Shown here: positions 14,623 to 57,961 of the stretch, piece after piece
Position numbering within the stretch: position 1 is the stretch's first letter
Layout of the letters: each line of letters opens with the position of its first letter
Source of the DNA: Halichondria panicea
Taxonomy: Eukaryota > Porifera > Demospongiae > Suberitida > Halichondriidae
Assembly: GCF_963675165.1 (NCBI RefSeq)
Contig: NC_087384.1
Coordinates: 6,699,682-6,763,681 of the forward strand
Direction of reading: 5' to 3'
DNA length: 64,000 nucleotides
Made by a program: the position numbers and the translations under genes
Notes under the pieces: generated by a model
What the model saw: only the letters and a program-made list of their open reading frames with translations
The model's database searches: none
Told to the model about the DNA's origin: nothing

Positions 14623-16920
14623 ATGGCTACAAGATATAGCCAGCTCAATATTGATATTGATACTCTGAAGCAGAAGACTGGGGTAACAGACACCCAGCTA
14701 GACCAAAGAATTGAGCAGGAACAATTGTGGAGCCTGGCTGGAGTACTTGGCAGCTATAAAAAGTTTGTTAGAAGCTCAGGGTTTGATCTCAATAATGCAG
14801 ATATAGAGGATCTGAAGGAATGTGCCTCCAAGCATGGCAATCAACAAGCCATGTATGAAGCTTTAATGAAATGGGGAAAATTCATCCGTGACTTCACTTA
14901 TCGGTCGTTGTTGGAGATTTTGATTGGTCTTCGTGAAGGAGCTTTGGCTGACCAAGTGTGTAGGACTTGTGAGTTACTTTATAAATAGCTACAATCTGTG
15001 TTTTCATCATTTCTTGTGCTCCAGTCATCCAGACACAAGCCAGTGAGCGGAATAAAGAAGACGCTGTGTCCTTGTCACCTGCACCAGGTTAATAGCTCAG
15101 TATAGCATGGATTCAACTAATTTTCCTTGTAACATAGATAGAAAACCACTTCTGACAGGGCCACCAATTCATGACGTACTTCAACCGAATTTGGGGACAG
15201 GTAATCTTTTAACGTAGTTGTGATGTAGTAACGTACATACATTTCATTAGGCACTACAACTGCTGACCACATAGACAAATTTGAGATGAGGTTTATAGAT
15301 CTACGAAAGATGGCTCTCAAAGAAATAACTGAGAAACGAATACCTGTGACTGAGTTCCGCCAAACACTCATGATAATGCCAAGCTTCATCAAAAATGTAA
15401 ACAAAGATTTTATCAAATCAAACTATTCCTTGTTTGAAGAAGCTAAATCGATCGAAAGTATCTTTTTGCATCTCAATTTCTACCTGAGCTTTATTGATTT
15501 CAGCCTTCTTGAGCATATCATAAAGCAATTTGGTAGTGATAGTCTGAAACGAGACATGAGCAGCTATGCAGAAGACATGAGACAGTTCAGATTGAACACC
15601 TCCGTTAGCGAAGCACTTGACCATCTTCCAAGAAATTCAGATACTCCTGCTGGTTACTGTCGTTTAACATTGAAATTAGATTTTGATGTTCATACTGCAA
15701 CTCTTGAAGATGTAGACACATACAGGAAACGTTTCGCTAGTGAATTCTTGCTCTCCCAGCTAGCCCTTTCTTTGTTTGACCTCCAGGAGAGCTCACTACT
15801 GGTTACATGGCTAGTGCCTGCTGCTGTAGGAGCAATGATCAGTGACCAAGTGCAGAAGAAAAGTTCTTCTTTCTTTTTAAGTTTAAGCAACAATATTCTC
15901 AAGCTATCACTCAAAGGAGAATGTCTCTACCCAATGGTAAAGGTAAGTGTTTAATTCTGCCCCTAATCCGATGAATTTTGTCTCTACAGGTTAGTCAGTC
16001 AGGTACAGAGGGATCTGGTGGTGCTATGATTGAAGCTGGAGCTTCGATCACTCGTAAACCACATCAAAGGATAGCGGAACGATTCAACCTCAAACCTAAT
16101 CATCGTGGACTGGCTATTGTTGTACCATTCCGTCCGTTGTTGTACCTAACGGACGTGCTCACGAAGAAATTGATATTTGATATTTACGAGCCTCGAAATA
16201 AACGATCCCTAAAGTCATACATGCAAGCTGTAGATCTTGTGGAGCTGAAACACCATCCCATAATAGTGGTGGTATCTGGATATGGAGTGTAGGGTAATCT
16301 TCTACGCACTGATATTGGTGACATTGACATCAAGGAAGATATTATGGCACCACTATTCCCTGCTATTGCCACACACCTTGCTGACAACCCAAAGATATTC
16401 CTATTCTTTTCAGATCCGGCTCTTCTAAACGCCATGCTCTAAATTTCGTTGAAGCAATCTGGGAAAACTGCATTGTTGGTTATATTGCATGTGATAATCT
16501 GCGGAGGGCAGGAGACATCGTAGAGGACGAACTGGCACACCCTTCTATGTTCGTGCAAGAGATCTTCACTTCAATTAGCGACAAACTTCCACCCCATGCT
16601 ACCATGACTGTGATCGACCGTCTCAAGGAGCCAGTCTACTTGCATCCTCATGGATCTGAGTTAATGAAACTCACAGCAGATCACAAGGTATAGTGTCTAT
16701 AATGTGTTCACACACTTCACATCATGCCTCACTCCCCACATTAGAATCAACCGAGGAGTCCGGTTTTCTGTCACGTGTACGTCAATTATCAATCGCTGCC
16801 AAGGAGCCTGATACTGAATCACATCTACTGGAACAACCAATCAAGAAGCTCAAAACTGAACTATCACCAAAGCAATCGAAGGGAGTCCCCAAACAAGCTG
16901 AGTCGAGTGATGAACTCTAA
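14623..16920 (+). pseudogene. Array unit 1: Death-domain/pseudocaspase, broken in caspase exon
   Basis: Exons at 14623-14968, 15025-15087, 15138-15200, 15251-15942, 15990-16687 and 16745-16920. The Death-fold exon, both linkers and the long middle exon are open. The caspase-like exon has a stop at 16290-16292 (glycine-glycine-valine region replaced by a TAG), a one-base loss near 16400 after the KIF strand, and another one-base loss near 16665. Its closest relative is unit 12, which has none of these. This is the only unit without an antisense TMEM248-type exon upstream: homology to the other units begins only about 50 bp before the ATG, marking the left edge of the array. The tail is the KQSKGVPKQAESSDEL type. 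A product truncated after the middle module is possible. Confidence 0.8.
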
Positions 16921-17420
16921 AGGACTAATTAATAGTGCTCACCTCATGCTAGTATGAGTCTTTATATTGTTTGTACACATTAATTTGTATTTAATATTGC
17001 AATTATTATTATGCCTCGAGGCGTAGATCTTTTTCTTGAGGGCGTGGTAAGCCACATAACACTCCCCACATACAATAGATAACAATATGCATGTACAAAG
17101 AGTCTTTTCTTCTGTTATATGATATAGTTACACTGAACCCAACATCTTAATTGGCAGAATCAATTTTCAATCCTCACAAAACACTACAATAATAACAATA
17201 GATATTTTTAATAGGTGCATGTAAACAAGTTTTTTCTTCTCGTGAGTTTATATAGATAAGCTAATTTCAATGTGAAATTCATTATAGAAACTTATTCCTT
17301 CTACTATAGCACTCTAGAGCGAAAGCATAACATGGCGAGAGGCATTAGCACAGTGCAGCTTGCAACACTCGTTATAGACAGCAGCAGACAGTGACAAAAT
17401 GACTAATGAAACAGAGCTAG
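16921..17420. repeat. Long inter-unit spacer, copy 1
   Basis: About 500 bp without a gene. It contains ATGCCTCGAGGCGTAGATC (GCCTCGAGGC palindrome) and a long AT-rich stretch, and ends at the antisense terminal exon. The same block follows units 5, 10, 12 and 13, all of which, like unit 1, have the KQSKGVPKQAESSD tail, so the block travels with that tail subtype. Confidence 0.7.
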
Positions 17421-17550
17421 CTACTCAACGCTAGGTTTAGGGTGTGTTGGTCTGTCAGTGAGTAGTATGCCCAGTGTGAACACTAGACTGAGAGCTGCCA
17501 CCGCCACTGCTGCCAGGTACATGTGGTGGGCCGCCACTGTCTTGTCAGAC
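17421..17550 (-). pseudogene. Antisense TMEM248-type terminal exon, copy before unit 2
   Basis: On the minus strand, acceptor CACACACAG is followed by SDKTVAAHHMYLAAV, a hydrophobic helix (AVAALSLVFTLGILL), a short TDRPTHPKPSVE tail and a stop. It is near-identical to the presumed functional last exon at 58120-58248. The frame and the acceptor are intact; T is replaced by S at the first position. Confidence 0.8.
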
Positions 17551-17707
17551 TGTGTGTGGTCCTGGAGGTGTGTGTGTGTGCATCTTTGTACTTCATTACT
17601 TCACTAATTATTTGTTTCCAATGAATAAAATTATTTATAACAATTATTTCCACAGGAATGCAATGCGGAGGTGTAAAATAAGGGTGGGTCTTTGTAGAGT
17701 CTACAAG

Positions 17708-19544
17708 ATGGCTACAAGATATAGCCAGCTCAATATTGATATTGATATTCATACTCTGAAGCAGAAGACTGGGGTAACAGACCCCCAGCTAGACCAAAGA
17801 ATTGAGCAAGAACAATTGTGGAGCCTGGCTGGTTTACTTGGCAGCTATGATAAGTTTGTTAGAAAGCCAGGGTTTGATGCCGATATAGCAGATCTGAAGG
17901 AATGTGCCTTTAGGAATGGCTATCGACAGGCCATGTATGAAGCTCTGAGAAAATGGGAAAACGTAATCCTTGACTTCACTTATCGGTCGTTGTTGGAGAT
18001 CTTAATTAGTCTTCGTGAAGGAGCTTTGGCTGACCAAGTGTGTAGGACTTGTGAGTTAATTACTTTATAAATAGCTACAATCAGTGTTTTCATCATTTCT
18101 TGTGCTCCAGTCATCCAGACACAAGCCAGTGAGCCGAATAAAGAAGACGCCGTGTCCTTGTCACCTGCTCCAGGTTAGTTAATATCAAGCTCATATATAT
18201 TGTTTCCGATACTATAGGTTGTCACGAGACAGTTCAGAATGAGCACCCCCGTTAGAGATGCACTTGGCCATCTTCCGAGAAATTCAGATCCTCCTGCAGG
18301 TTACTCTCGTCTAACAGTGAAATTAGATTTTGATGTTAAAACTGCAACTCTTGAAGATGTAGACACGTACAGGAAACGTTTCGCTAGTGATTTCTCGCTC
18401 TCCCAGCTAGCCCTTTCTTTGTTTGAGCTCCAGGAAAGCTCACTACTGGTTACATGGCTAGTCCCTGCTGCTGTAGGAGCAATGATCAGTGATCAAGTGC
18501 AGAAGAAAAGATCTTCTTTCTTTTTAAGCAACAATATTCTCAAGCTATCACTCGAAGGAGAATGTTTCTACCCGATGGTAAAGGTAAGTGTTTAATTCTG
18601 CCCCTAATCCAATGAATTTTGTCTCTACAGATTAGTCAGTCAGGTACAGAGGGATCTGGAGGTGCTATGATTGAAGCTGGAGCTTCAATCACTCGTAAAC
18701 CACATCAAAGGATAGCGGAGCGAATCAACCTCGAACCTAATCATCGTGGACTGGCTATTGTTGTACCATTCCGTTTGTTGTTGGACCTAACGGACGTGCT
18801 CACGAGGACATTGAGATTTGCTGTTTATGAGCCTCGAAATGAACCATCCCTAAAGTCATACATGCAAGCTGTAGATCTGGAGCTGAAACACCATCCCATA
18901 ATAGCGGTGGTATCTGGAGTTGGAAGGGGTGATCTTCTTCTACGCACTAATATTGGTGACATCGACATCAAGGAAGATATTATGGCACCACTATTCCCTC
19001 CTATTGCCACATACCTTGCTGACAACCCAAAGATATTCCTAGTTGTTGTCAATTCCTCCGGCTCTTCTGAACGCCATGCTCTACATTTCTTTGAAGCAAT
19101 CTGGGAAAACTACATTGTTGGTTACATTACATGGAGTGATCACGGTGGTTGGCGGAGGGTGACAGACATCATAGAGAACAAACTGGCACACCCTTCTCTG
19201 TCTGTGCAAGATTTTTTGACTTCAATTAGCAACCAAATTCCACCCACCGTTACCATGACTGTGATCGACCGTCTCAAGAAGCCAGTTTACTTGCATCCTC
19301 GTGGATCTGAGCTAATGGGAACTCACAGCAGATCACCAGGTATAGTCACATGTCTATAATGTATCCACACACTTCACATCATGCCTCACTCCCAACATTA
19401 GAATCATCCGAGGAGTCTGATAGTGAATCACATCTGCTGAAACAACCAACCAAGAAGCTCAAAACTGAACTATCGTTAACGCAACAAGAAGGAGTCCCCT
19501 CTCAACAAGCTGAGTCGAGTGATAAACTTCATGAAGACTTATAG
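17708..19544 (+). pseudogene. Array unit 2: deletion derivative
   Basis: Death-fold exon 17708-18050 and linker 18111-18173 are intact. Linker exon 3 and the first half of the middle exon are deleted: the linker acceptor at 18217 runs directly into GTTGTCACGAGACAG and then the NTPV-equivalent region. From that acceptor the frame is off by one to the remaining middle exon (to 18583), and no alternative AG nearby restores it. The caspase-like exon 18631-19339 is fully open; its His-loop reads SGVGRGD and its Cys-loop VVNSSGSSER, so neither catalytic residue is present. Tail exon 19402-19544 is open, with an intermediate tail (LTQQEGVPSQQAESSDKL). Confidence 0.8.
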
Positions 19545-19982: not shown

Positions 19983-22641
19983 ATGGCTACAAGATATACC
20001 CAGCTCAATATTGATATTGATACTCTGAAGCAGAAGACTGGGGTAACAGACACCCAGCTAGACCAAACAATTGAGCAGGAACAATTGATGTGCTTGGCCA
20101 GTTTACTTGGCAGCTATGATAAGTTTGTTAGAAGCCCAGGATTTGATCTCACCAATGCTGAAATAGCAGATCTGAAGGATTGTGCCTCCAAGCATGGCAA
20201 TCAACTGGCTATGTGTGAAGCTTTAAGGAAATGGGGAAATGTCATCCGTGACTTCACTTATCGGTCGTTGTTGGAGATTTTGATTGGTCTTCGTGAAGGA
20301 GCTTTGGCTGACCAAGTGTGTAGGACTTGTGAGTTACTTTATAAATAGCTACAATCTGTGTTTTCATCATTTCTTGTGCTCCAGTCATCCAGACACAAAC
20401 CAGTGAGTCGAATAAAGAAGACTCTGTGTCCTTGTCACCTGCACCAGGTTAGTAGCTCAGTATAATTATGGATTCAGCACTTTATATATATTAATTTTTA
20501 TTTCCGGTACCATAGGTAGACTATCACCTCTGACAGGGCCACTGATTAGTGACCCAGTTGAACCAAATTCCGTGGCGACAGGTAATCCTTTAACGTACTT
20601 TTGATATGGTATGTACATGTCATTTCTAGGCACTACAACTGCTGACCTCATAAAAGAATTTGATAGGAGGTTTAGGGATCTACGAAAGATAGCTCTCGAG
20701 GAGATAACTGAGAAACGAATACCTGTGACTGAGTTCCGCCAAACACTCATGAATTTACCGTGCCCTATCACAAATGAAAACAAAGATTTTATCATATCGA
20801 AGTATTTCTTGTTTGAAAAAGCAGAGTCCATCGAAAGCATCTTTCTGTACCTCAATTTCTACCTAAGCTTTATTGATTTCAGCCTTCTTGAGCATATCAT
20901 AGAGCAATTTGGTAGTGATAGTCTGAAACGAGACATGAGCAGCTATGCAAAAGACATGAGACACTTCAGAATCAACACCCCCGTTAGCGAAGCACTTAGC
21001 TATCTTCCGAAAATTTCAGATGCTACTGCTGGTTACTCTCGTCTAACAGTGAAGATTGATTTTGATATTCAGACTGCAACTCTTGAAGATGTAGAGACGT
21101 ACAGAAAACGTTTTGCTAGTGATTTCTTGCTCTCCCAGCTAGCCCTTTCTTTGTTTGACCTCCAGGAGAGCTCACTACTGGTTACATGGCTAGTGCCTGC
21201 TGCTGTAGGAGCAATGATCAGTGATCAAGTACAGAAGAAAAGTTCTTCTTTCTTTTTAAGCAATAATATTCTCAAGTTATCACTTAAAGGAGAATGTCTC
21301 TACCCGATGGTAAAGGTATGTGTTTAATTTTGTCCCTTATCCGATTATTTGTGTGTTATACAGTTTAGTCAATCAGGTAAAAGGGATCTTATGATTGAAG
21401 CTGTGGCTGGAAAACCCGGTTTGACCTCTCTTGAACCATTGAACCAAGGAGAATGTCTCTACCCGATGGTAAAGGTAAGTGTTTAATTCTGCCCCTAATC
21501 CGATTATTTTTTTCTCTATACACAGACAAAAACAGGTGAATCTAGTAGTTCTATGATTGAAATTGGAGCTGGTTTGACCTCTCTTAAACCACATCAAAGG
21601 ATAGCGGATGAAATGAAGCGATCAATCGATCTCGGACCTAATCATCGTGGACTGGCTATTGTTGTACCACATTATTATATGTTGTCGAATCTAACGAACA
21701 TGCTCAGGGAGACATTGGGATTTGCTGTTTACGAGCCTCGAGATGAACCATCCCTAAAGTCATACATGCAAGCTGTAGATCTTGTGGAGCTGAAACACCA
21801 TCCCATAATAGTGGTGGTAGATGGACATGGGGGGAGGGGTTATCTTCTACACACTGATACTGGTGAAATCGACATTAAGGAAGATAATTTTTATGGCACC
21901 ACTATTCCCTCCTATTGCCACACACCTTGCTGACAACCCAAAGATATTCCTATTTATTGTCAGATCCGACTCTTCTGAACGCCATGCTCTAAATTTCGTT
22001 GAAGCAATCTGGGAAAACTGCATTGTTGGTTATATTGCATGTGATGATCTCGGTGATGTGCAGTGGGTGGCAGACATCGTACGGGACGAACTGGCACACC
22101 CTTCTATGTCTGTGCAAGAGATTTTCACTTCAATTCGTGAACAGGTTCCACACACTGCTACAGCTACCATGACTGTGGTCGACCGTCTCAAGGAGCCAGT
22201 CTACTTGTATCCTCGTAGCAGATCACAAGGTATATATAGTCACATGTCTATAATGTATTCACACACTTCACATCATGCCTCACTCAGACAAACTGGCACA
22301 CCCTTCTATGTCCGTGCAAGAGATCTTCACTTCAATTAGTGAACTCATTGCTACCATGACTGTGGTCGATCGTCTTAAGGAGCCAGTCTACTTGCATCCT
22401 CGTGAACCTGAGCTAATCATCGGATCACAAGGTATAGTCACATGTCTATAATGATTCACACACTTCACGTCATGCCTCACTCCCCACATTAGAATCATCC
22501 GGGGAGTCCAGTTGTCTATCACATTCAAGTGGACTATCAGTCGCTGAACAATCGCATCTACTGGAACAACCAACCAAGAAGCTCAAGACTGAAGTATCAC
22601 CCGAGTCGAGTGAGAAACTCCAAATTGATGAAGACTTATAG
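19983..22641 (+). pseudogene. Array unit 3: His-bearing copy with frameshift and chimeric extra exon
   Basis: Exons: 19983-20328, 20385-20447, 20516-20581, 20630-21315. Then comes an extra in-frame 111-bp exon (21364-21474) made of the start of a unit-14-type caspase exon fused to a copy of the end of the middle exon, complete with donor. The caspase exon proper starts at 21526. It retains a histidine (codon 21826-21828) in a DGHGGRG loop, but the Cys-loop reads IVRSDSSER. A 4-bp expansion near 21884-21892 (AAGATAATTTTTATG) breaks the frame. After 22229 a second partial copy of the caspase-exon 3' end follows (about 22288-22431), then the tail exon 22493-22641. The last 190 bp are nearly identical to those of units 6 and 11. 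Confidence 0.8.
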
Positions 22642-22790
22642 TGCTCACCTTATTATTATATACAACGCACCTGTATAATCATGTGTAATTCTGTTCGAGC
22701 AAATTCTTTATATTTTTTGTACAAATTGCAAGTAATTATTGAAACAGCACATGAGATCAAATGACAAAATGACTAATGAAACAGAGCTAG

Positions 22791-22919
22791 CTACTCAACG
22801 CTAGGTTTAGGGTCTGTTGGTCTGTCAGTGAGTAGTATGCCCACTGTGAACACTAAACTGAGAGCTGCCACTGCCACTGCTGCCAGGTACATGTGGTGGG
22901 CCGCCACTGTCCTGTCAGT
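22791..22919 (-). pseudogene. Antisense TMEM248-type terminal exon, copy before unit 4
   Basis: Open, with an intact acceptor. It carries the D-R-T-V-A start (plus-strand CCTGTCAGT) and the GGTCTG variant in the tail; both are shared with the copies before units 7, 9 and 12. Confidence 0.8.
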
Positions 22920-23062
22920 CTGTGTGTGGAGCAGGAGGTGTGTGTGTGTGCATCTTTGTAAAGCTAATTTGTTTCCAATGAATAAAATTATTTATAACAA
23001 TATTTCCACAGGAATGCATGTGGAGGTGCAAAATAAGGGGTGGGTCTTGTAGAGTCTACAAG

Positions 23063-25716
23063 ATGGCTACAAGATATAGCCAGCTCAATATTGATATTGA
23101 TACTCTGAAGCAGAAGACTGGGGTAACAGACACCCAGCTAGACCAAAGAATTGAGCAGGAACAATTGTGGAGCCTGGCTGGTTTACTTGGCAGCTATAAA
23201 AAGTTTGTTAGAAGCTCAGGGTTTGATCTCAATAATGCTGATATAGAGGATCTGAAGGAATGTGCCTCCAAGCATGGCAATCAACAAGCCATGTATGAAG
23301 CTTTAATGAAATGGGGAAAATTCATTCGTGACTTCACTTATCGGTCGTTGTTGGAGATTTTGATTGGTCTTCGTGAAGGAGCTTTGGCTGACCAAGTGTG
23401 TAGGACTTGTGAGTTACTTTATAAATAGCTACAATCTGTGTTTTCATCATTTCTTGTGCTCCAGTCATCCAGACACAAGCCAGTGAGCCAAATAAAGAAG
23501 ACGCTGTGTCCTTGTCACCTGCACCAGGTTAATAGCTCAGTATAGTATGTATTCAAGTAATTTTCCTTGTACCATAGATAGAAAATCACTTCTGACAGTG
23601 CCACCAATTCATGACGTACTTCAACCGAATTTGGGGACAGGTAATCTTTTAACGTAGTTGTGATGTGGTAACGTACATACATTTCATTAGGCACTACAAC
23701 TGCTGACCACATAGACAAATTTGAGACGAGGTTTATAGATCTACGAAAGATGGCTCTCAAAGAAATAACTGAGAAACGAATACCTGTGACTGAGTTCCGC
23801 CAAACACTCATGATAATGCCAAGCTCCATCAAAAATGAAAACAAAGATTTTATCAAATCAAACTATTCCTTGTTTAAAGAAGCTAAATCGATTGAAAGCA
23901 TATTTTTGGAGATCAATTTCTACCTAAGCTTTATTGATTTCAGCCTTCTTGAGCATATCATAGAGCAATTTGGCACTTGACCATCTTCCAAGAAATTCTG
24001 ATGCTCCTGCTGGTTACTGTCGTTTAACATTGAAATTAGATTTTGATGTTCACACTGCAACTCTTGAAGATGTAGACACATACAGGAAACGTTTCGCTAG
24101 TGAATTCTTGCTCTCCCAGCTAGCCCTTTCTTTGTTTGACCTCCAGGAGAGCTCACTACTGGTTACATGGATAGTGCCTGCTGCTGTAGGAGCAATGATC
24201 AGTGACCAAGTGCACAAGACAACAGCTTCCTTCTTTTTAAGCAACGGTATTCTCAAGCTATCACTTGAAGGAGAATGTCTCTACCCAATGGTAAAGGTAT
24301 GTGTTTAATTCTGCTCCTTAATTCAATGATTGTTTTCCTCTATACAGGTTACATGTAGTCAATCAGATACAAGGGAATCTAGTAGTCCTGCGATTGAAGC
24401 TGGAGCTGGTTTTACCCCTCTTGTACCACATCAAAATGAAATGAAAGGAATAATCGACCTCGGACCTAATCATCGTGGACTGGCTATTGTTGTACCATAT
24501 TTTGATTCGTTATTGAACATAACGAACATTCTCAGGGAGACTTTGAGATTTACTGTTTACGAGCCTCAAGATAAAACATCACTAAAGTCATACATGCAAG
24601 CTGTAGATCTGGAGCTGAAACACCATCCCATAATAGTGGTGGTATCTGGACATGGGGGGAGGGGTAATCTTCTACGCACTGATATTGGTGTCATCGACAT
24701 CAAGGAAGATATTATGGCACCACTATTCCCTCCTATTGCCACACACCTTGCTGACAACCCAAAGATATTCCTGTTTATTGGCTCTTCTGAATGCCTTTCC
24801 TTTGTCGAAGTTGATACAATCTGGGACAACTGCATTTTTTGTTTTATTACATGTAATGATGAGATACGGATGACAGACATCGTACATGAAGAACTGGTAT
24901 CCCCTTCTATGTCCGTACAAGAGATCTTCACTTCAATTAGCGACATCCTTCAACCCGCTGCTACAATAACTGTGATCAACCATCTCAAGGAGCCAGTTTA
25001 CTTATATCCTGATGGATCTGACAGATTAGCCTATTTTGATTTATCCTCATTTGTCTCACTCCCACCACTCCATCGAAGGCTACTACAAGGTATAGTCAGG
25101 GTTCTATCTAGTGGGGGGGGGGGCCGGGGGGAAGCTTCCCCCCCAAACTATCCATTTTCCCCCCAAACCTTCCAGCTTCCCCCCCAAACCTTCCAGCTTC
25201 CCCCCCAAACCTTCCAGCTTCCCCCCCAAACCTTCCAGCTTCCCCCCCAAACCTTCCAGCTTCCCCCCTGGTACCTTCTTGCACTTACACTGTACTAATA
25301 CCATAGATACTATATTCCTATAGTATCTATGGGTATTATACTGCACTATACTATAATAGAATAATGCTTTAATAATTATACACATCTGTGAACCTCTATT
25401 TGTGCACCTCAAATTTTTAAGTAAAAGACCTTATTTGGTTCAAATTGCGTCTCTGGCCATCTAGAATAAAAAATTTTCCAGGGGAGGACCCCTGGACCCC
25501 CCTTTCAGCCTATGGCTCGTGCTTTGCACTCGCCGTAGGCTTCCCCCCACAAAATATTCCCCCCCCCAAAATATTTCTTCTAGATAGAACCCTGATATAA
25601 TAGTCATAATTATGTCTATAATGTATTCACACACTTCACTCCCCACATTAGAATCATCCGAGGAGTCCGATAGTGAATCACATCTAATCAATCGACGTTA
25701 CTGGTCTGGAGCCTGA
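23063..25716 (+). pseudogene. Array unit 4: His-bearing copy, 80-bp deletion, element in last intron
   Basis: Exons 23063-23408, 23465-23527, 23578-23640, 23691-24295, 24348-25089, 25652-25716. The middle exon lacks about 80 bp after EQFG (near 23974), shifting frame. The caspase exon is open and keeps a histidine (codon 24651-24653) in SGHGGRG, while the Cys-loop reads IGSSECLSF. Its distal end differs from most units (SDRLAYFDLSSFVSLPP). The last intron carries a terminal-inverted-repeat element (25097-25594). The tail exon has a deletion (HLLEQSIDV reduced to HLINRR) and stops early at 25714-25716. Unit 9 is the near-identical partner. Confidence 0.8.
25097..25594. mobile_element. Terminal-inverted-repeat element with C-rich minisatellite (unit 4)
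   Basis: It is bounded by CAGGGTTCTATCTAG and its exact reverse complement CTAGATAGAACCCTG. Inside, near the left end, are a G-tract and a 20-bp minisatellite (CTTCCCCCCAAACCTTCCAG, about five copies); near the right end a C-rich stretch (TTCCCCCCACAAAATATTCC). It has no transposase, so it is a non-autonomous element. It is inserted in the intron between the caspase-like and tail exons; the empty site is seen in the other units (GTATAGTCACATGTC). The same insertion is present in unit 9 with fewer minisatellite copies. Confidence 0.75.
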
Positions 25717-26159: not shown

Positions 26160-28570
26160 ATGGCTACAAGATATAGCCAGCTCAATATTGATATTCATAC
26201 TCTGAAGCAGAAGACTGGGGTAACAGACACCCAGCTAGACCAAAGAATTGAGCAGGAACAATTGATCAGCTTAGCCAGTTTACTTGGCAGCTATGAAAAG
26301 TTTGTCCCAGGATTTAATCTCAATAATTCTGATACAGCGGATCTGAAGGATTGTGCCTTTAGGAGTGGCTATCGACAGGCTATGTATGAAGCTTTGAAGA
26401 AATGGGACAACAAAATCCTTGACTTCACTTATCGGTCGTTGTTGGAAATTTTGATTAGTCTTTGTGAAGGAGCTTTGGCTGACCAAGTGTGTAGGACTTG
26501 TGAGTTACTTTATAAATAGCTAATCTGTGTTTTCATCATTTCTTGTGCTTCAGTCATCCAGACACAAACCAGTGAGCTGAATAAAGAAGACGCTGTGTCC
26601 TTGTCACCTGCACCAGGTTAGTAGCTCTTATTATCCAGCACTTTATATTTATATTTCCGATACTATAGGTCGATCACCTCTGACAGAGCCACCAATTCTT
26701 GATCCAATTGAACCAAATTTGTTGGCAACAGGTAATCTTTTAACGTACATGTAGTTTTGACATGATAAGTCATGTCCATTTCATTTTATTAGGCACTGCA
26801 ACTGCTGACTGCATACAACAATTTGAGACGAGATTTATGGTTCTACAAAAGATAGCTCTTAAAGAAATAACTGAGAAGCGAATACCTGTGACTGAGTTCC
26901 GCCAAGCACTCATGATAATGCCAAGCTCCATCAAAAGTGAACACAAAGTTTTTATCTTATCAAAACATTCCTTGTTTGAAAAAGCAGAATCGATCGAAAG
27001 CATATGTGTGCATCTCAGTTTCCTACCTAAGCTTTATTGATTTCAGCCTTCTTGAGCATATCATAGAGCAATTTTGTAGTGATAGTCTGAAACGAGACAT
27101 GAGCAGCTATGCAAAAGACATGAGACAGTTCAGAATGAACACCCCCGTTAGCGAAGCACTTGACCATCTACCGAGAAATTCAGATCCTCCTGCTGGTTAC
27201 TCTCGTCTAAAAGCGAAATTAGATTTTGATGTTAAAACTGCAACTCTTGAAGATGTAGACACGTACAGGAAACGTTTTGCTAGTGATTTCGCACTCTCCC
27301 AGCTAGCTCTTTCTTTGTTTGACCTCCAGGAGAGCTCACTACTGGTTACATGGCTAGTCCCTGCTGCTGTAGGAGCAGTGATCAGTGACCAAGTGCAGAA
27401 GAAAAGTTCTTCTTTCTTTTTAAGCAACAATATTCTCAAGCTCTCACTTGAAGGAGAATGTCTCTACCCTTTCATGCCGATGGTAAAGGTAAGTGTTTAA
27501 TTCTGCCCCTAATCCGATGAATTTTGTCTCTACAGGTTAGTCAGTCAGGTACAGAGGGATCTGGAGGTGCTATGATTGAAGCTGGAGCTTCGATCACTTG
27601 TAAACCACATCAAAGGATAGCGGAGCGAATCAACCTCAAACCTAATCATCATGGACTGGCTATTGTTGTACCATTCCGTTCGTTGTTGGACCTAAGGGCT
27701 GTGCTCGCATGGAAATTGAGATTTGCTGTTTACGAGCCTCAAGATGAACCATCCCTAACGTCATCCATGCAAGCTGTAGATCTGGAGCTGAAACACCATC
27801 CCATAATAGTGGTGGTATCTGGACTTAGAGAGGGTAATCATTTATACACTGATATTGGTGACTTCGACATCAAGGAAGATATTATGGCACCACTATTCCC
27901 TCCTATTGCCACACACCTTGCTGACAAACCAAAGATATTCCTATTTGTTGTCAATTCCAACTCCTCTGAACGCCATGCTCCTCTGCATTTCGTTGAAGCA
28001 ATCTGGGAAAACTACATTATTGGTTATATTGGATGTGATTATCTGCGGAGGGCGGGAGACATCGTAGAGAAATCTCCTTCTATGTCCGTGCAAAACATCT
28101 TCACTTCAATTAGCCACAAGCTTCAATCCCTCCATGATGTGCTGAGGGTGGCAGACATCGTAGAGGACGAACTGGCACACCCTTCTATGTCCGTGCAAGA
28201 GATCTTCACTTCAATTAGCGACAAACTTCCACCCCATGCTACCATGACTGTAATCGACCGTCTCAAGGAGCCAGTTTACTTGCATCCTTGTGGATCTGAG
28301 TTAATGGAAACTCACAGCAGAACACAAGGTATAGTCGACTACATGTCTATAATGTATTCACACACTTCACGTCATGCCTCACTCCCCACATTAGAATCAA
28401 CCGAGGAGTCCGGTTTTCTGTCACGTGTACGTCAACTATCAATCGCTGCCAAGGAGCCTGATACTGAATCACATCTACTGGAACAACCAATCAAGAAGCT
28501 CGAAACTGAACTCTCACCAAAGCAATCGAAGGGAGTCCCCAAACAAGCTGAGTCGAGTGATGAACTCTAA
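26160..28570 (+). pseudogene. Array unit 5: single-base frameshift in middle exon
   Basis: Exons 26160-26499, 26554-26616, 26669-26731, 26793-27488, 27536-28328, 28395-28570. Everything is open except for one extra C near 27022 (TTTCCTACC, where unit 10 has TTTCTACC) that shifts the middle exon; all other exons are phase-consistent. A single-base difference could be a sequencing or assembly error. The caspase exon has an SGLREGN loop and a VVNSNSSER loop, so neither catalytic residue, and a duplicated segment (DIVEKSPSMSVQ, then DIVEDELAHPSMSVQ) shared with units 7 and 10. Confidence 0.8.
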
Positions 28571-31604: not shown

Positions 31605-31754
31605 TGCTCACCTTATTATTATATACAACGCACCTGTATAATCATGTGTAATTCTGTTCGAGCAAATTCTTTATATTTTTTGTACAAATTGCAAGTAATT
31701 ATTGACAACAGCACATGAGATCAAATGACAAAATGACTAATGAAACAGAGCTAG

Positions 31755-34428: not shown

Positions 34429-34584
34429 TGTTCACCTTATTATTATATACAACGTACCTGTATAATCATGTGTAATTCTGTTTGAGCAAATTCTTTATAT
34501 TTTTTTTACAAATTGCAAGTAATTATTGACAACAGCACATGAGATCAAAAGACAGTGATGAAATGACTAATGAAACAGAGCTAG

Positions 34585-34723: not shown

Positions 34724-34868
34724 CTGTGTGTGGAGGTGTGTGTGTGTGTGTGTGTGCATCTTTGTAAAGCTAATTTGTTTCCAATGAATAAAATTATTTA
34801 TAACAATATTTCCACAGGAATGCATGCGGAGGTGCAAAATAAGGGGGTGGGTCTTGTAGAGTCTACAA

Positions 34869-45996: not shown

Positions 45997-46146
45997 TGCT
46001 CACCTTATTATTATATACAACGCACCTGTATAATCATGTGTAATTCTGTTCGAGCAAATTCTTTATATTTTTTGTACAAATTGCAAGTAATTATTGACAA
46101 CAGCACATGAGATCAAATGACAAAATGACTAATGAAACAGAGCTAG

Positions 46147-46416: not shown

Positions 46417-48713
46417 ATGGCTACAAGATATAGCCAGCTCAATATTGATATTGATACTCTGAAGCAGAAGACTGGGGTAACAGACACCCAGCTAGACCAA
46501 AGAATTGAACAGGAACAATTGTGGAGCCTGTCTGGTGTACTTGGCAGCTATAAAAAGTTTGTTAGAAGCTCAGGGTTTGATCTCAATAATGCGGATATAG
46601 AGGATCTGAAGGAATGTGCCTCCAAGCATGGCAATCAACAAGCCATGTATGAAGCTTTAATGAAATGGGGAAAATTCATCCGTGACTTCACTTATCGGTC
46701 GTTGTTGGAGATTTTGATTGGTCTTCGTGAAGGAGCTTTGGCTGACCAAGTGTGTAGGACTTGTGAGTTACTTTATAAATAGCTACAATCTGTGTTTTCA
46801 TCATTTCTTGTGCTCCAGTCATCCAGACACAAGCCAGTGAGCTGAATAAAGAAGACGCTGTGTCCTTGTCACCTGCACCAGGTTAATAGCTCAGTATAGC
46901 ATGGATTCAAGTAATCTTCCTTGTACCATAGATAGAAAATCACTTCTGACACGGCCACCAATTCATGACGTACTTCAACCGAATTTGGGGACAGGTAATC
47001 TTTTAACGTAGTTGTGATGTAGTAACGTACATACATTTCATTAGGCACTACAACTGCTGACCACATAGACAAATTTGAGACAAGGTTTATAGATCTACGA
47101 AAGATGGCTCTCAAAGAAATAACTGAGAAGCGAATACCTGTGACTGAGTTCCGCCAAACACTCATGATAATGCCAAGCTCCATCAAAAATGAAAACAAAG
47201 ATTTTATCAAATCAAACTATTCCTTGTTTGAAGAAGCTAAATCGATTGAAAGCATATTTTTGGAGATCAATTTCTACCTAAGCTTTATTGATTTCAGCCT
47301 TCCTGAGCATATCATAGAGCAATTTGGTAGTGATAGTCTGAAACAAGACATGAGCAGCTATGCAGAAGACATGAGACATTTCAGAATGAACACCCCCGTT
47401 AGCGAAGCACTTGACCATCTTCCAAGAAATTCTGATACTCCTGCTGGTTACTGTTGTTTAACATTGAAATTAGATTTTGATGTTCATACTGCAACTCTTG
47501 AAGATGTAGACACATACAGGAAACGTTTCGCTAGTGAATTCTTGCTCTCCCAGCTAGCCCTTTCTTTGTTTGACCTCCAGGAGAGCTCACTACTGGTTAC
47601 ATGGCTAGTGCCTGCTGCTGTAGGAGCAATGATCAGTGACCAAGTGCAGAAGAAAAGTTCTTCTTTCTTTTTAAGTTTAAGCAACAATATTCTCAAGCTA
47701 TCACTCAAAGGAGAATGTCTCTACCCAATGGTAAAGGTAAGTGTTTAATTCTGCCCCTAATCCGATGAATTTTGTCTCTACAGGTTAGTCAGTCAGGTAC
47801 AGAGGGATCTGGTGGTGCTATGATTGAAGCTGGAGCTTCGATCACTCGTAAACCACATCAAAGGATAGCGGAGCGATTCAACCTCAAACCTAATCATCAT
47901 GGACTGGCTATTGTTGTACCATTCCGTCCGTTGTTGTACCTAACGGACGTGCTCACGAAGAAATTGATATTTGATATTTACGAGCCTCGAAATAAACGAT
48001 CCCTAAAGTCATACATGCAAGCTGTAGATTTGGAGCTGAAACACCATCCCATAATAGTGGTGGTATATGGACGTGGAGTGAGTGGTAATCTTCTACGCAC
48101 TGATATTGGTGACATTGACATCAAGGAAGATATTATGGCACCACTATTCCCTGCTATTGCCACACACCTTGCTGACAACCCAAAGATATTCCTATTTGTT
48201 TTCAGATCCGGCTCTTCTAAACGCCATGCTCTAAATTTCGTTGAAGCAATCTGGGAAAACTGCATTGTTGGTTATATTGCATGTGATAATCTGCGGAGGG
48301 CAGGAGACATCGTAGAGGACGAACTGGCACACCCTTCTATGTTCGTGCAAGAGATCTTCACTTCAATTAGCGACAAACTTCCACCCCATGCTACCATGAC
48401 TGTGATCAACCGTCTCAAGGAGCCAGTTTACTTGTATCCTCATGGATCTGAGTTAATGGAAACTCACAGCAGATCACAAGGTATAGTGTCTATAATGTGT
48501 TCACACACTTCACATCATGCCTCACTCCCCACATTAGAATCAACCGAGGAGTCCGGTTTTCTGTCACGTGTACGTCAATTATCAATCGCTGCCAAGGAGC
48601 CTGATACTGAATCACATCTACTGGAACAACCAATCAAGAAGCTCAAAACTGAACTCTCACCAAAGCAATCGAAGGGAGTCCCCAAACAAGCTGAGTCGAG
48701 TGATGAACTCTAA
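46417..48713 (+). CDS. Array unit 12: Death-domain/pseudocaspase protein, intact, 678 aa
   Basis: Exons 46417-46762, 46819-46881, 46932-46994, 47045-47736, 47784-48480, 48538-48713 (2037 nt, phases consistent). Death fold with DIEDLKECASKHGNQQAMYEALMKW; middle module with a Leu-to-Pro change (FSLPEHIIEQF) in the otherwise invariant LLEHII helix, which could destabilise it; caspase-like domain about 389-620 with YGRGVSG and VFRSGSSKR loops, so no catalytic His or Cys. The last intron is shortened and happens to be read through in frame, so intron retention would still give a full-length protein. The tail is rich in Lys/Glu/Ser (KKLKTELSPKQSKG). It is the intact sister of the broken unit 1. Confidence 0.82.
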
Positions 48714-49488: not shown

Positions 49489-51982
49489 ATGGCTACAAGA
49501 TATAGCCAGCTCAATATTGATACTCTGAAGCAGAAGACTGGGGTAACAGACACCCAGCTAGACCAAACAATTGAGCAGGAACAATTGTGGAGCCTGGCTG
49601 GTGTACTTGGCAGCTATGATAAGTTTGTTCGAAAGCCAGGGTTTGATCTCAATAATGCCGATATAGCAGATCTGGAAACCATTGCCTCTAAGCGTAATGG
49701 AAATCAACAGGCTATGTATGAAGCTTTAAGGAAATGGGAAAATGTCATCCGTGACTTCACTTATCGGTCGTTGTTGGAGATTTTGCTTAGTTTTCGTGAA
49801 GGAGCTTTGGCTGACCAAGTGTGTAGGACTTGTGAGTTAGTTTATAAATAGCTACAATCTGTGTTTTCATCATTTCTTGTGCTCCAGTCATCCAGACACA
49901 AGCCAGTGAGCTGAATAAAGAAGACGCTGTGTCCTTGTCACCTGCACCAGGTTAGCAGATCAGTGTGGAGTTAATATTTTACTAATTTTATTTCCGGTAC
50001 CATAATTATAGATAGAATATCACTTCCGACACGGCCACCAATTCCTGACCTAGTTGAACCAAATTCCATGGCGACAGGTAATCTTTTAACGTAGTTTTGA
50101 TATGGTAATCATGTACATTTCATTTTTATTAGGCACTACAACTGCTGACCGCATACATGAATTTGAGACGAGGTTTATGGATCTACAAACGAAAGCTCTC
50201 GATGAGATAGATGATAAACGAATAACTGTAACTCAGTTCCGTCGAAAGCTCATGATAATGCCAAGCTCCATCAAAAGTGAAAATAAAGATTTTATCTTAT
50301 CAAAACATTCCTTGTTTGAAAAAGCAGAATCGATCGAAAGCATATTTGTGCATCTCAATTTCTACCTGAGCTTTATTGATTTCAGCCTTCTTGAGCATAT
50401 TATAAAGCAATTTGGTAGTGATAGTCTGAAACGAGACATGAGCATCTATGCAGAAGACATGAGACAGTTTAGAATGAAAACCTCTGTTAGTGAAGCACTT
50501 GACTATCTTCCGAGAAATTCAGATGCTCCTGCTGGTTACTCTCGTCTAACAGTGAAATTTGCTTTTGATATTCAGACAGCAACTCTGGAAGACGTAGACA
50601 AATACAGGAAACGTTTCGCTAGTGATTTCTCACTCTCCCAGCTAGCCCTTTCTTTGTTTGAACTTCAGGAAAGCTCACTACTGGTTACATGGCTAGTGCC
50701 TGCTGCTGTAGGAACAATGATCAGTGACCAAGTGCAGAAGAAAAGGTCTTTTTTCTTTTTCAGCAATGGTATTCTCAAACTATCGCTTGAAGTAGAATGT
50801 CTCTACCCTTCCATGCCGATGATAAAGGTAAGTGTTTAATTCTGCTTCTTATCCAATGAATTTTGTCTCTATACAGGATAGTCAATCAGGTACAGAGAGA
50901 TCTGGTGGTGCTATGATTGAAACTGGAGCTGGAAAACCCAGTTTGACCTCTCTTGAACCACATCACCTTAAACTATATCAAAGGAAGGTGGTGAAACCAA
51001 CAATCAAGCTCGAACCTAATCATCTTGGACTGGCTATTGTTGTACCATTCCATTCGTTTTTGAGCCTAACGAATGTGCTCACGAGATTTGCTGTTTACGA
51101 GCCTCAAGATGAACCATCCCTAAAGTCATACATACAAGCTGTAGATCTTGTGGAGCTGAAACACCATCCCATATTAGTGATGGTATATGGACATGGACTT
51201 GCAAGGGGTAATCTTCTACACCCTTCCGGTGGCTTCATCAACATCAAGGAAGATATTATGGCACCACTATTCCCTCCTATTGCCTCACACCTTGCTGACA
51301 ACCCAAAGATATTCCTGTTTGCTGCCTCAAATTCTAAACGCCATGCTCTACATTTCGTTGAAGCAATCTGGGAAAACTGCATTGTTGGTTATATTGCATG
51401 CGATGATCTCGGAGATATGCGGTGGGTGAGACACATCGTACGGGGCAAACTGGCGCACCCTTCTATGTCCGTGCAAGAGATCTTTACTTCAATTAGCGAC
51501 CAACTTCTACCTTTTGCTACCATGACTGTGCTCGACCGTCTCAAGAAGCCAGTCTACTTGTATCCTCGTGGATCTGAGTTAATGGAAATTCACAGCAGAT
51601 TACCCAAACGTGCACGTGTTTCCTCAACCCCACCTACATTCTCTCATCCTCATGGATCTGAGCTAATGAAAACTCACGGCAGACTAGGTTCACGTCCACA
51701 TTTTCCCACACACTCACGTACATTCAATCGCAGCAGATCACAAGGTATAGTCACATGTCTATAATGTATTCACACACTTCACATCATGCCTCACTCCCCA
51801 CATTAGAATCATCCGAGGACTTCGGTTTGCTGTCACGTTTAGGTGGACTATCAATCGCTGCCAAGGAGCCTGATACTGAATCACATCTACTGGAACAACC
51901 AATCAAGAAGCTCAAAACTGAACTCTCACCAAAGCAATCGAAGGGAGTCCCCAAACAAGCTGAGTCGAGTGATAAACTCTAA
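49489..51982 (+). CDS. Array unit 13: Death-domain/pseudocaspase protein, intact, His retained, 736 aa
   Basis: Exons 49489-49831, 49888-49950, 50012-50077, 50133-50827, 50877-51744, 51807-51982 (2211 nt, phases consistent). Death fold with the ETIASKRNGNQ segment otherwise seen only in unit 8; middle exon closest to unit 7 (DLQTKALDEIDDKRITVTQF). The caspase-like domain keeps the HG histidine (codon 51192-51194, loop YGHGLARG) but has AASNSKR where the catalytic Cys should be. Between p10-like strand and tail is an expansion: HPHGSEL repeated, with Arg/Pro-rich sequence (PKRARVSSTPP and LGSRPHFPTHSR). It is the only open unit with the histidine. Its predicted role is non-proteolytic. Confidence 0.82.
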
Positions 51983-52741: not shown

Positions 52742-54998
52742 ATGGCTACAAGATATAGCCAGCTCAATATTGATACTGATACTCTGAAGCAGAAGACTGG
52801 GGTAACAGACACCCAGCTAGACCAAACAATTGAGCAGGAACAATTGTGGAGCCTGGCTGGTTTACTTGGCAGCTATGATAAGTTTGTTAGAAAGCCAGGG
52901 TTTGATCTCAATAATGCCGATATAGCAGATCTGAAGGAATGTGCCTTTAGGAATGGCTATCAACTGGCCATGTATGAAGCTCTGAGAAAATGGGAAAACA
53001 TAATCCTTGACTTCACTTATCGGTCGTTGTTGGAGATTTTGATTAGTCTTCGTGAAGGAGCTTTGGCTGACCAAGTGTGTAGGACTTGTGAGTTACTTAT
53101 AAATAGCTACAATCTGTGTTTTCATCATTTCTTGTGCTCCAGTCATCCAGACACAAGCCAGTGAGCCCAATAAAGAAGACACTGTGTCTTTGTCACCTGC
53201 ACCAGGTTCAGTATACTTTGTAGTATGGATTCAAGCATTAATTTTTGTTTCTGTTACCATAGATAGAATGATAGGGCCACCAATTCGTGACTCAGTTGAA
53301 CCAAATTTGACGACAGGTAACTTTTAATGTAGTTTTGATGTAGTAACGTACGTACATTATATTAGGCACTGCAACTGCTGACCACATAAAAGAATTTGAG
53401 ACGAGGTTTATGGTTCTTCAAAAGATAGCTCTTAAAGAAATAACTGAGAAACGAATACCCGTGACTGATTTCCGCCAAACACTCATGATAATGCCAAGCT
53501 CTATCAAAAATGAAAACAAAGATTTTATCAAATCAAACTATTCCTTGTTTGAAAAAGCTAAATCGATTGAAAGCATCTTTTTGGAGATCAATTTTTACAT
53601 AAGCTTTATTGATTTCAGCCTTCTTGAGCATATCATAGAGCAATTTGGTAGTGATAGTCTGAAACAAGACATGAGCACCTATGCAGAAGACATGAGACAC
53701 TTCAGAATGAACACCCCCGTTAGCGAAGCACTTGGCCATCTTCCCAAAAATTCAGATGCTCCTGCTGGTTACTCTCGTCTAACAGTGAAGTTCGCTTTTG
53801 ATATTCATACTGCAACTCTTGAAGATCTAGAGACGTACAGAAAACGTTTTGCTAGTGATTTCTTGCTCTCCCAGCTAGCCCTTTCTTTGTTTGATCTCCA
53901 GGAGAGCTCACTACTGGTTACATGGCTAGTGCCTGCTGCTGTAGGAGCAATGATCAGTGATCAAGTGCAGAAGAAAAGTTCTTCTTTCTTTTTAAACAAC
54001 AGTATTCTCAAACTATCACTCGAAGGGGACTGTCTCTACCCAATGGCAACGGTATGTGTTTAATTTTGTCCCTTATCCGATTATTTGTGTGTTATACAGT
54101 TTAGTCAATCAGGTAAAAGGGATCTTATGATTGAAGCTGTAGCTGGAAAACCCGGTTTGACCTCTCTTGAACCACATCAAAGGAAAGTTGTGAAGCCAAC
54201 AATCAACCTCGAACCTAATCATTGTGGACTGGCTATTGTTGTACCATCACACATGACAACACACATTCTCATGGAGACTTTGAGATTTGCTGTTTACGAG
54301 CCTCAAAATAAACCATCCCTGATGTCATACATGCAAGTTGTAGATCTTGTGGAGCTGAAACACCATCCCATAATAGTGATGGTATATGGACTTGGGCCAG
54401 GTAATCTTCTACACACTCTTTGTGGCCTCATCGACATCAAGGAAGATATTATGGCACCACTATTCCCTCCTATTGCCACACACCTTGCTGACAACCCAAA
54501 GATATTTTTGTTTAATGCTTGTTTCGGCTCTTCTGAACACAGTGTTTTTCAGTTTATTGAAGCATCCTGGGAAAACTACATTGTTGGTTATATTGCATGT
54601 GATTATTTCTGGGTTACACGCATCGTAGAGGACGAATTGGCATCCCCTTCTCTGTCCGTGCAAGAGATCTTCACTTTAATTAGCGACAAGCTTCCACCCC
54701 ATGCTACCATGACTGTGATCGACTGTCTCAAGGAGCCAGTCTACTTGTATCCTCGTGGACCTGAGCTCATAGAAACTCACAGCGAATCACAAGGTATAGT
54801 CACATGTCTATAATGTATTCACACACTTCACATCATGCCTCACTCCCCACATTAGAATCATCCGAGGAGTCCTATCCACTTCTACGTGAACAATCAATGA
54901 ACAATCAATCGTTGGGCTCAATACACGTTTATGGCAACACTGAACTGATATCCAAAAACATCCACTGGAACCATAGATACTTGAACAAACTGCACTAA
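52742..54998 (+). CDS. Array unit 14: Death-domain/caspase-like protein with NACFG motif, 661 aa
   Basis: Exons 52742-53087, 53143-53205, 53263-53316, 53366-54051, 54100-54793, 54856-54998 (1986 nt, phases consistent). The caspase-like exon is the most divergent of the array. It starts FSQSGKRDLMIEAVAGKPGL, and at the catalytic-Cys position reads NACFG (Cys codon 54520-54522) followed by SSEHSVFQ, matching the QACxG signature of active caspases. The histidine position reads YGLGPG, so the dyad is still incomplete. The p10-like strand is GYIACDYFWVTRIV. The tail exon is unlike the others (MNNQSLGSIHVYGNTEL). The middle exon ends MAT instead of MVK before its donor. Either it is the unit nearest the ancestral active enzyme or a convergent Cys; proteolysis without His is not expected. 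Confidence 0.8.
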
Positions 54999-55183
54999 AA
55001 CAACCAAAAGGAGCCCCCTCTCAACAAGCTGAGTCGAGTGATGAACTACAAATTAATGAAGACTTATGCTATATAATTATAATTATATCTTTTAATCATA
55101 TTTTTGCACACATTTTTATTATTGCAAGACATGCAATTGACAACAGCACATGAAATCAAACGACAATAATGAAACAGAGCTAG

Positions 55184-55312: not shown

Positions 55313-55465
55313 CTGTGTGTGGAGGTGTGTGTGTGTGTGTGCATCTTTGTACTTCATTACGTCATGCTAATTTTTTCCAATGAATAAAATTATTTATAAC
55401 AATTATTTCCACAGGAATGCATGCGGAGGTGTAAAATAAGGGGTGGGTCTTGTAGAGTCTACAAG

Positions 55466-57961
55466 ATGGCTACAAGATATAGCCAGCTCAATATTGATAT
55501 TGATACTCTGAAGCAGAAGACTGGGGTAACAGATACCCAGCTAGACCAAACAATTGAGCAAGAAAAATTAATGAGCTTGGCCAGTTTACTTGGCAGCTAT
55601 GAAAAGTTTGTCCCAGGATTTCATCTCAATAACACTGATATAGCGGATCTGAAGGATTGTGCCTTTAGGAATGGCTATCGACAGGCCATGTATGAAGCTC
55701 TGAAGAAATGGGAAAACATAATCCTTGACTTCACTTATCGGTCGTTGTTGGAGATTTTGATTAGTCTTCGTGAAGGAGTTTTGGCTGACCAAGTGTGTAG
55801 GACTTGTGAGTTACTTATAAATAGCTACAATCTGTGTTTTCATCATTTCTTGTGCTCCAGTCATCCAGACACAAGCCAGTGAGCCCAATAAAGAAGACAC
55901 TGTGTCTTTGTCACCTGCACCAGGTTCAGTATACTTTGTAGTATGGATTCAAGCATTAATTTTTGTTTCTGTTACCATAGATAGAATGATAGGGCCACCA
56001 ATTCGTGACTCAGTTGAACCAAATTTGACGACAGGTAACTTTTAATGTAGTTTTGATGTAGTAACGTACGTACATTATATTAGGCACTGCAACTGCTGAC
56101 CACATAAAAGAATTTGAGACGAGGTTTATGGTTCTTCAAAAGATAGCTCTTAAAGAAATAACTGAGAAACGAATACCCGTGACTGATTTCCGCCAAACAC
56201 TCATGATAATGCCAAGCTCTATCAAAAATGAAAACAAAGATTTTATCAAATCAAACTATTCCTTGTTTGAAAAAGCTAAATCGATTGAAAGCATCTTTTT
56301 GGAGATCAATTTTTACATAAGCTTTATTGATTTCAGCCTTCTTGAGCATATCATAGAGCAATTTGGTAGTGATAGTCTGAAACAAGACATGAGCAGCTAT
56401 GCAGAAGACATGAGACAGTTCAGAATGAAAACCTCTGTTAGCGAAGCACTTGACCATCTTCCGAGAAGTTCAGATGCTCCTGCTGGTTACTCTCGTCTAA
56501 CAGTGAAATTTGCTTTTGATATTCAGACAGCAACTCTTGAAGACGTAGACAAATACAGGAAACGTTTCGCTAGTGATTTCTCACTCTCCCAGCTAGCCCT
56601 TTCTTTGTTTGACCTCCAGGAGAGCTCACTACTGGTTACATGGCTAGTGCCTGCCGCTGTAGGAGCAATGATCAGTGATCAAGTGCAGAAGAAGAGGTCT
56701 TTTTTCTTTTTAAGCAACAATATTCTCAAGCTATCACTTGAAGGAGAATGTCTCTACCCTTTCATGCCGATGGTAAAGGTAAGTGTTTAATTCTGCCCCT
56801 AATCAGATGAATTTTGTCTCTACAGGTTAGTCAGTCAGGTACAGAGAGATCTGGTGGTGCTATGATTGAAGCTGGAGCTTCGATCACTCGTAAACCACAT
56901 CAAAGGATAGCGGAGCGAATCAACCTCAAACCTAATCATCGTGGACTGGCTATTGTTGTACCATTCCATTCATTGTTGGACCTAACGGACGTGCTCATGA
57001 GGAAATTGAGATTTGATATTTACGAACCTCAAGATGAACCATCCCTAACGTCATACATGCAAGCTGTAGATCTTGTGGAGCTGAAACACCATCCCATAAT
57101 AGTGGTGGTATATGGACGTGGAGTGAGTGGTAATCTTCTACGCACTGATATTGGTTATATCGACATCAAGGAAGATATTATGGCACCACTATTCCCTCCT
57201 ATTGCCACACACCTTGCTGACAACCTAAAGATATTCCTGTTTATTGTCATATCCGACTCTTATGAACGCTATGGTCCACATTTCGTTGAAGCAATCTGGG
57301 AAAACTGCATTGTTGGTTATATTGCATGTGATAATCTCAATGATGTGCTGTGGGTGACAGACATCGTACGGGACAGACTGGCACACTCTTCTCTGTCCGT
57401 GCAAGATTTTTTGACTTCAATTAGCAACCAGATTCCGCCCACCGCTACCATGACTGTGATCGACCGTCTCAAGAAGCCAGTTTACTTGCATCCTCGTGGA
57501 TCTGAGCTAATGGGAACTCACAGCAGATCACCAGGTATAGTCACATGTCTATAATGTATTCACACACTTCACATCATGCCTCACTCCCCACATTAGAATC
57601 ATCCGAGGAGTCCGATACTCTGTCACATTTAGGTGGACTATCAATTGCTGAACAATCACATCTAAGTGGACCGCATGAGCCAGTTTACTTGCATCCTCGT
57701 AGATCTGAACTAATGGAAACTCACAGCGGATCACAAGGTATAGTCACATGTCTATAACACACTTCACATCATGCCTCACTCCCCACATTAGGATTATCCG
57801 GGGAATCTGGTTATCTGTCACATCCAAGTGGACTATCAATTGCTGAACAATCAATTGATTTTACTGGTCTACTGGAACAACCAATTGAGGAGGAGCTGAA
57901 AACTAAATCCAAGGGTGCCAAAGCAATAAAAGAGTCCCCGAAGCAGAGTCCTTTAAATTGA
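55466..57961 (+). CDS. Array unit 15: Death-domain/pseudocaspase protein, 7 exons, 723 aa
   Basis: Exons 55466-55805, 55861-55923, 55981-56034, 56084-56778, 56826-57534, 57597-57737, 57792-57961 (2172 nt, phases consistent). This is the rightmost unit. Death fold of the EKFVPGFHLNNTDIADLKD subtype; linkers and first half of the middle exon nearly identical to unit 14. The caspase-like domain has YGRGVSG and IVISDSYER loops, so no catalytic residues. The tail is duplicated: exon 6 fuses the usual tail start to a copy of the PVYLHPRRSELMETHSGSQG end of the caspase exon with its own donor, and a seventh exon (GLSGESGYLSHPSGLS...) completes the protein. Exon 6 is phase 1-1, so it can be skipped in frame. 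Confidence 0.8.

Follow-up and report, generated by a model that had tools for sequence, protein, structure and literature searches.

In the sponge Amphimedon, 357 proteins have been reported, most of them with Death-like domains, a TRADD-N domain and a variable C-terminus that may be a kinase, LRR, ankyrin or caspase region and is often fast-evolving (Kaur et al. 2021, eLife 10:e70394, PMC8195603). Death-module-variable proteins with caspase C-termini are already known from a sponge. Here we describe a tandem array of 15 Death-pseudocaspase genes in a 64,000-nucleotide stretch, the window (C8:6699682-6763681), of the 131 Mb genome of the sponge Halichondria panicea, whose short introns, large Death/NACHT repertoire and gene with two DEDs and a caspase domain are in keeping with a sponge. 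Like the Death/DED-TRADD-N-variable proteins of Amphimedon and other marine invertebrates (PMC8195603), these genes show an N-terminal Death-like domain and a middle domain at the junction of the constant and variable parts, but no profile confirmed TRADD-N in them. The accessible parts of that paper mention no pseudocaspase array, dyad loss or selection test on an array, nor does the phrase 'positive selection' occur in its main text. Sponge NLRs with a Death domain (NLRD, e.g. in Dysidea avara, PMC12909245) are likewise expanded Death-bearing immune genes, and in H. panicea the array module also precedes NACHT. The array genes differ from them in that neither NACHT nor LRR gave a Pfam match in two full unit proteins (E up to 10) or in exon-wise scans. 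Human c-FLIP is the textbook dead caspase and carries N-terminal DEDs; a review on c-FLIP-L (CFLAR) is reportedly titled 'FLIP(L): the pseudo-caspase' (PMC7586951). The array genes resemble it in having a caspase-like domain without a complete catalytic dyad, but c-FLIP is a single gene, whereas here there are 15 tandem copies with a Death domain and a shared module. In the open-licence PMC literature, no title or abstract opening among the matches listed concerned a non-vertebrate tandem pseudocaspase array or selection on one.

The units have one architecture, namely a Death-type domain, two linkers, a module shared with other gene families of the genome, a domain homologous to caspases whose catalytic dyad is incomplete, and a charged tail; the caspase-like domain, encoded by exon 5, carries an excess of amino-acid change and of frame-preserving length change. 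BLASTn with the six unit-1 exons as queries recovered the 15 head-to-tail units that a previous sequence-only reading of this DNA had counted. Projection of the unit-12 exons gave cumulative phases 1,1,1,0,1, as that reading had proposed, and its two linkers of 18-22 residues agree with exon 2 (63 nt in 15 of 15 units) and exon 3 (54-66 nt in the open units 7 and 12-15). Its six open models were recovered as well: in the projected model, units 7, 12, 13, 14 and 15 stay open to the end of exon 5, and unit 11 is open once exon 3 is skipped. That reading did not mention that the remaining nine are broken.

Exon 5 is homologous to caspases according to hhalign (97.7, with shuffle controls), and the structure predicted for exon 5 of unit 15 is a caspase fold over residues 35-226, a kind of check that the sequence-only reading had proposed for the protein of unit 7 or 12; the structure predictions drew on 12 and 10 window sequences. 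Of the five strands previously aligned with caspase landmarks, four fall on predicted strands, and the fifth, LKEPVYL, has two bridge residues only. The nearest relatives with an intact dyad by profile are L022 and L023 on C16 of the same genome (hmmsearch, L023 at E 8.8e-17), whose SGHG, IGEDIIKPFLP and VVFLHPQG motifs align with exon 5. They differ in being single-exon caspases with intact His-Cys, a longer linker and no Death domain in the open reading frame (ORF). From the strand before the Cys position to the p10-like strand there are 18 residues, against 45 after the Cys in L022, and there is therefore little room for the usual p20-p10 processing linker, as had been noted before. A long in-frame insertion in exon 5 of units 5, 7 and 10 (27536-28328, 33410-34217 and 41949-42741) repeats the p10-side helix segment within the caspase-like domain; the other copies have gaps of 108-120 nt there.

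In the 12 open exon-5 copies, the position in register with the His of SGHG of the active relatives holds R, V, L, I, D or H, and the one in register with the Cys of DACRG holds I, R, N, a gap or C. The His is kept in units 4, 9 and 13 and in the broken unit 3; the Cys is kept in unit 14 only, whose His position is Leu. Six relative sequences, from L045, L052, L055, L059 and L060, have neither residue. His and Cys thus occur together in none of the 12 open copies and in none of the six aligned relative sequences; exon 5 of the broken units 1, 3 and 8 was inspected apart from this alignment. Loss of the dyad was piecemeal and differed among the copies.

The three larger domains were compared for selection in the units intact for each: exon 5 in 12 of 15 units (without 1, 3 and 8), exon 1 in 12 (without 8, 9 and 10) and exon 4 in 10 (without 2, 4, 5, 6 and 9). 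The likelihood models added L045, L052 and L055 for exons 5 and 4, and L052 and L055 for exon 1, while L057 and the pieces at C8:2.39 Mb were left out of all tests. The counted ratio of nonsynonymous to synonymous divergence (dN/dS) was 0.475 (0.29-0.79) for exon 1, 0.483 (0.36-0.64) for exon 4 and 1.33 (1.06-1.72) for exon 5. Exon-5 dN (0.177) and dS (0.134) compare with 0.125 and 0.112 in the flanking introns and 0.015 in intron 1. Among six pairs, replacement against silent changes per site were 68/514 and 10/155 in 6/11, 6/502 and 1/149 in 4/9, 52/510 and 14/156 in 7/12, 48/513 and 12/162 in 15/2, 51/510 and 12/156 in 15/12, and 10/519 and 3/156 in 5/10; the replacement excess is therefore clear in 6/11, slight in four pairs and absent in 5/10.

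Site models on 225 codon columns of exon 5, each present in at least 13 of 15 sequences, favored M2a over M1a with twice the log-likelihood difference (2dlnL) of 199.6 and M8 over M8a with 196.5, in tests that presume one tree per alignment. The value was 28.8, 92.4 and 60.0 for three thirds of the exon with their own trees, 121.0 with eight sequences, and 65.7 when rate variation was allowed (omega 3.4 for 36% of sites), a test without a null of its own; for exons 1 and 4 it was 4.1 and 6.3. Among the most variable exon-5 sites are the His position (posterior 1.0) and the residue preceding the Cys position (0.997); the Cys column was excluded from the model for its gaps. Indels are multiples of three in 26/26 cases in the 12 exon-5 copies, which were picked as open, and in 30/37 across the 15 units, compared with 1/11 in introns 1, 4 and 5, 3/7 in exon 4 and 6/8 in exon 1. 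From the dN/dS ratios, the site models and the indel frames we conclude that exon 5 codes for protein, has mostly stayed in frame and is diversifying. Its change outpaces that of the other parts of the gene.

The exon-4 module gave no credible Pfam or PDB match. A distant copy of it finds 85 places in the genome at E up to 1e-3, and five of these loci (L077-L081) were read in detail. L079, L080 and L081 have the module and NACHT in one ORF (Pfam 1e-10, 7.7e-13 and 7.1e-13), with LRR matches in L080 and L081. Upstream of L081 lies an exon-1 relative, 30% identical (E 1.8e-7) and without a Pfam Death match; it was seen for L081 alone, the DNA read excluding the region upstream of L079 and L080. 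L077 combines an exon-1 relative (E 2.5e-19, no Pfam match), the module and a kinase (3.1e-33), and L078 an exon-1 relative and the module with NACHT (7.4e-25) further on, possibly in a separate gene. Exon 4 aligned with the L079-L081 modules over 223 columns (98.8, score 116.3; ten shuffles 11.4-21.5), a match that ties the array to the NACHT genes of this genome. In L060, an uninterrupted ORF of 439 aa holds both the module and a caspase-like domain, and this fusion is therefore shown independently of any splice model.

The C-terminal half of exon 4 is probably TRADD-N. Its position between the Death exon and the variable C-terminus fits the TRADD-N description, for which a motif of a tiny residue and Ser at the beta2-beta3 turn has been given (Kaur et al. 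2021, PMC8195603), and all 8 of the 8 sequences aligned show SS or GS, always with the Ser, before a likely strand, which was assigned by eye. No TRADD match was obtained for this half in PDB or Pfam. PF13820 (TRADD-N) found nothing in the genome, but nothing in 14 controls either, and the exon-4 structure model was poor (pLDDT 40.9).

Concerning exon 1, the proposed Death-profile check succeeded in 7 of 15 units (best E 2.2e-4), while the other eight gave no Pfam Death match. A genome-wide Pfam Death run listed no array place among its 148 matches; a single-protein genome search with exon 1 gave 150 scored relatives among 514 candidates. No DED model matched exon 1 at E up to 10 in a Pfam scan whose library detects DED in L021.

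This last locus (C10:2919862-2923488) encodes two DEDs and a caspase domain, adjoins a Death exon of the array's family and has two pseudocaspase relatives, L059 and L060, at distances of about 6 and 21-23 kb; in vertebrates, cFLIP adjoins caspase-8 (PMC11121540). Two caspase loci on C11 (L016/L017 and L019/L020) each recur at equal score 9,700 bp away, either by recent duplication or as an assembly duplicate.

The reading that we favor, to which we give about even credence, is that one branch of a large immune-type family with the layout Death-[shared module]-[variable C-terminus] has expanded in tandem, its C-terminus in the array being a caspase fold that lacks a complete catalytic pair and acts as a non-cutting decoy or caspase partner. 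The more conserved Death domain would join Death-fold assemblies nucleated by NLR-type sensors with the same kind of Death exon and module, and the module might hold or switch the two ends of the protein, a switch role having been proposed for TRADD-N (Kaur et al. 2021, PMC8195603). The caspase-like domain would offer a caspase-shaped surface unable to cut, which could soak up microbial inhibitors aimed at real caspases or could bind and tune real caspases, and its diversification may follow from continual change in the partner that it faces. Broken copies would be by-products of tandem-gene birth and death. A dead-caspase array in a probable early animal lineage that diversifies mainly in its dead-caspase part, and is built on the same Death and middle modules as the NACHT genes of this genome, suggests a capacity of caspase pseudoenzymes to serve as molecules of an immune arms race, and the array supplies paralogues for testing.

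Several results weigh against it. Nine of the 15 units are broken in the projected model by stops, frameshifts or deletions, in exon 1 (units 8, 9 and 10), exon 4 (4, 5, 6 and 9) or exon 5 (1, 3 and 8); unit 2 is readable only via an unproven acceptor inside exon 4, having lost exon 3 and half of exon 4. The Peptidase_C14 profile that the sequence-only reading had proposed as a check matched 0 of 18 exon-5 sequences at E up to 10, and the 5/10 pair is without replacement excess. The likelihood-ratio p-values are inflated, because null arrays simulated with rate variation gave 2dlnL of 10.3-60.1 in 8 of 8 cases (seven with gene conversion, one without); the observed 199.6, and the 65.7 with rate variation, have to be judged against these values. 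The nulls bound the first test only roughly, since they were fitted without rate variation and their divergence (codon identity 0.70-0.77) is below that of the data (0.62). A common Death domain and module does not prove a common pathway. Finally, by simple counting the ratio is 1.42 alike in the loops on the active-site side and the opposite side, because dS rises where dN rises, and a focus on the pseudo-active site is thus unproven.

A possible but less probable alternative is that these are c-FLIP-like regulators, each protein pairing with and tuning an active host caspase, with diversity arising from duplication and partner choice within the host instead of from microbes. The earlier interpretation is partly supported: the label c-FLIP-like holds for a caspase-like domain without a complete dyad but fails for the two N-terminal DEDs, exon 1 matching Death and no DED. 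Less likely still is a bolder version of our own proposal, in which the former protease cleft became a variable recognition surface, with diversifying selection on the old active-site loops, signaling through the Death domain and broken units serving as gene-conversion donors, so that an invertebrate draws immune diversity from a dead enzyme; the evidence that exon-5 change targets the former active site is only suggestive. Marginally lower we place a dying tandem cluster, in which a useless domain evolves under relaxed constraint and the open copies are survivors. The number of broken units and the piecemeal loss of the dyad agree with such decay; however, dN/dS of exons 1 and 4 is under 1, exon-5 indels mostly keep the frame while those of the introns do not, and exon-5 dN exceeds intron divergence. 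That the proteins are still enzymes, by another nucleophile or by pooling half-sites between copies (the unit 14 Cys with the His of another unit), is very improbable in spite of the His in units 3, 4, 9 and 13 and the Cys in unit 14, as no open copy and none of the six relative sequences from L045, L052, L055, L059 and L060 has both residues, the His position and the residue before the Cys position are among the most variable sites, the His-bearing units 3, 4 and 9 are broken, and in caspases both catalytic residues are supplied by one chain.

Each unit is 87-99% identical to its best partner in the longest aligned piece, so that the near-identity claimed previously applies to some pairs and not to others. 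Units 4/9 (98.6%) and 5/10 (97.5%) are mutual best partners and the start spacing from units 4-7 to units 9-12 is constant at 14.39-14.41 kb, so that copying seems to have involved both blocks and single units; the closeness of unit 12 to unit 1 (97.1%) is set against this.

Table 1. Units of the array and selected exons, in positions of the window
Feature	Position	Strand	State or remark
Unit 1	14623..16920	+	Six exons; in-frame stop and frameshift in exon 5; broken
Unit 2	17708..19532	+	Without exon 3 and first half of exon 4; exon 5 open
Unit 3	19983..22666	+	Exon 5 broken; remaining His motif DGHGG
Unit 4	23063..25027	+	Exon 4 with deletion/frameshift; exon 5 open, SGHGG (keeps His but not Cys); close copy of unit 9
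Unit 5	26160..28570	+	Frameshift in exon 4; exon 5 open, p10-side segment duplicated; close copy of unit 10
Unit 6	29340..31629	+	Frameshift in exon 4; exon 5 open
Unit 7	32025..34453	+	All exons open; stop within exon 6
Unit 8	34863..37045	+	Start codon lost; exon 5 broken
Unit 9	37464..39534	+	Exon 1 with stop; exon 4 frameshifted; exon 5 open, DGHGG
Unit 10	40570..42983	+	Frameshift in exon 1; exons 4-6 open
Unit 11	43739..46021	+	Degraded exon 3; open when this exon is skipped
Unit 12	46417..48713	+	Open, 678 aa; template of the exon model
Unit 13	49489..51982	+	Open; His motif YGHGL kept, Cys lost
Unit 14	52742..55051	+	Open through exon 5; different C-terminal tail; sole copy with catalytic Cys (NACFG), His lost
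Unit 15	55466..57757	+	Open; exon 5 used for structure prediction
Unit 12 exon 1, Death-type domain	46417..46762	+	
Unit 12 exon 4, module	47045..47736	+	Common to NACHT, kinase and other Death genes; its C-terminal half is similar to TRADD-N as described in the literature
Unit 15 exon 5, pseudocaspase domain	56826..57534	+	Predicted fold, residues 35-226
Unit 12 exon 6, charged C-terminal tail	48538..48713	+	

The spacer after each of the 15 units contains a conserved hydrophobic segment, VAAHHMYLAAVAVAALSLVFTLGI, on the minus strand (e.g. 17424-17555, 22794-22925, 46150-46281 and 58123-58254). It is split in two by tBLASTn in some spacers and also stands beside the dispersed relative L055; it may be what is left of another gene, or else a small coding exon in antisense that was copied together with every unit. 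By eye, pieces of seven-helix receptor-like genes appear to flank the array, with the tail FLNAVVYGWTREDF at 14159-14482 (+) just upstream and VLSIADLMLAFLWVIGGVLW at 63608-64000 (+) downstream, neither of which gave a Pfam match. A gene with three CAP-Gly domain matches (E 4.1e-65) lies at 9582-10412 (-), and the right flank holds near-perfect minisatellites at 58564-58959 (units of 42-43 bp), 60694-61107 (27 bp) and 63470-63613 (14 bp).

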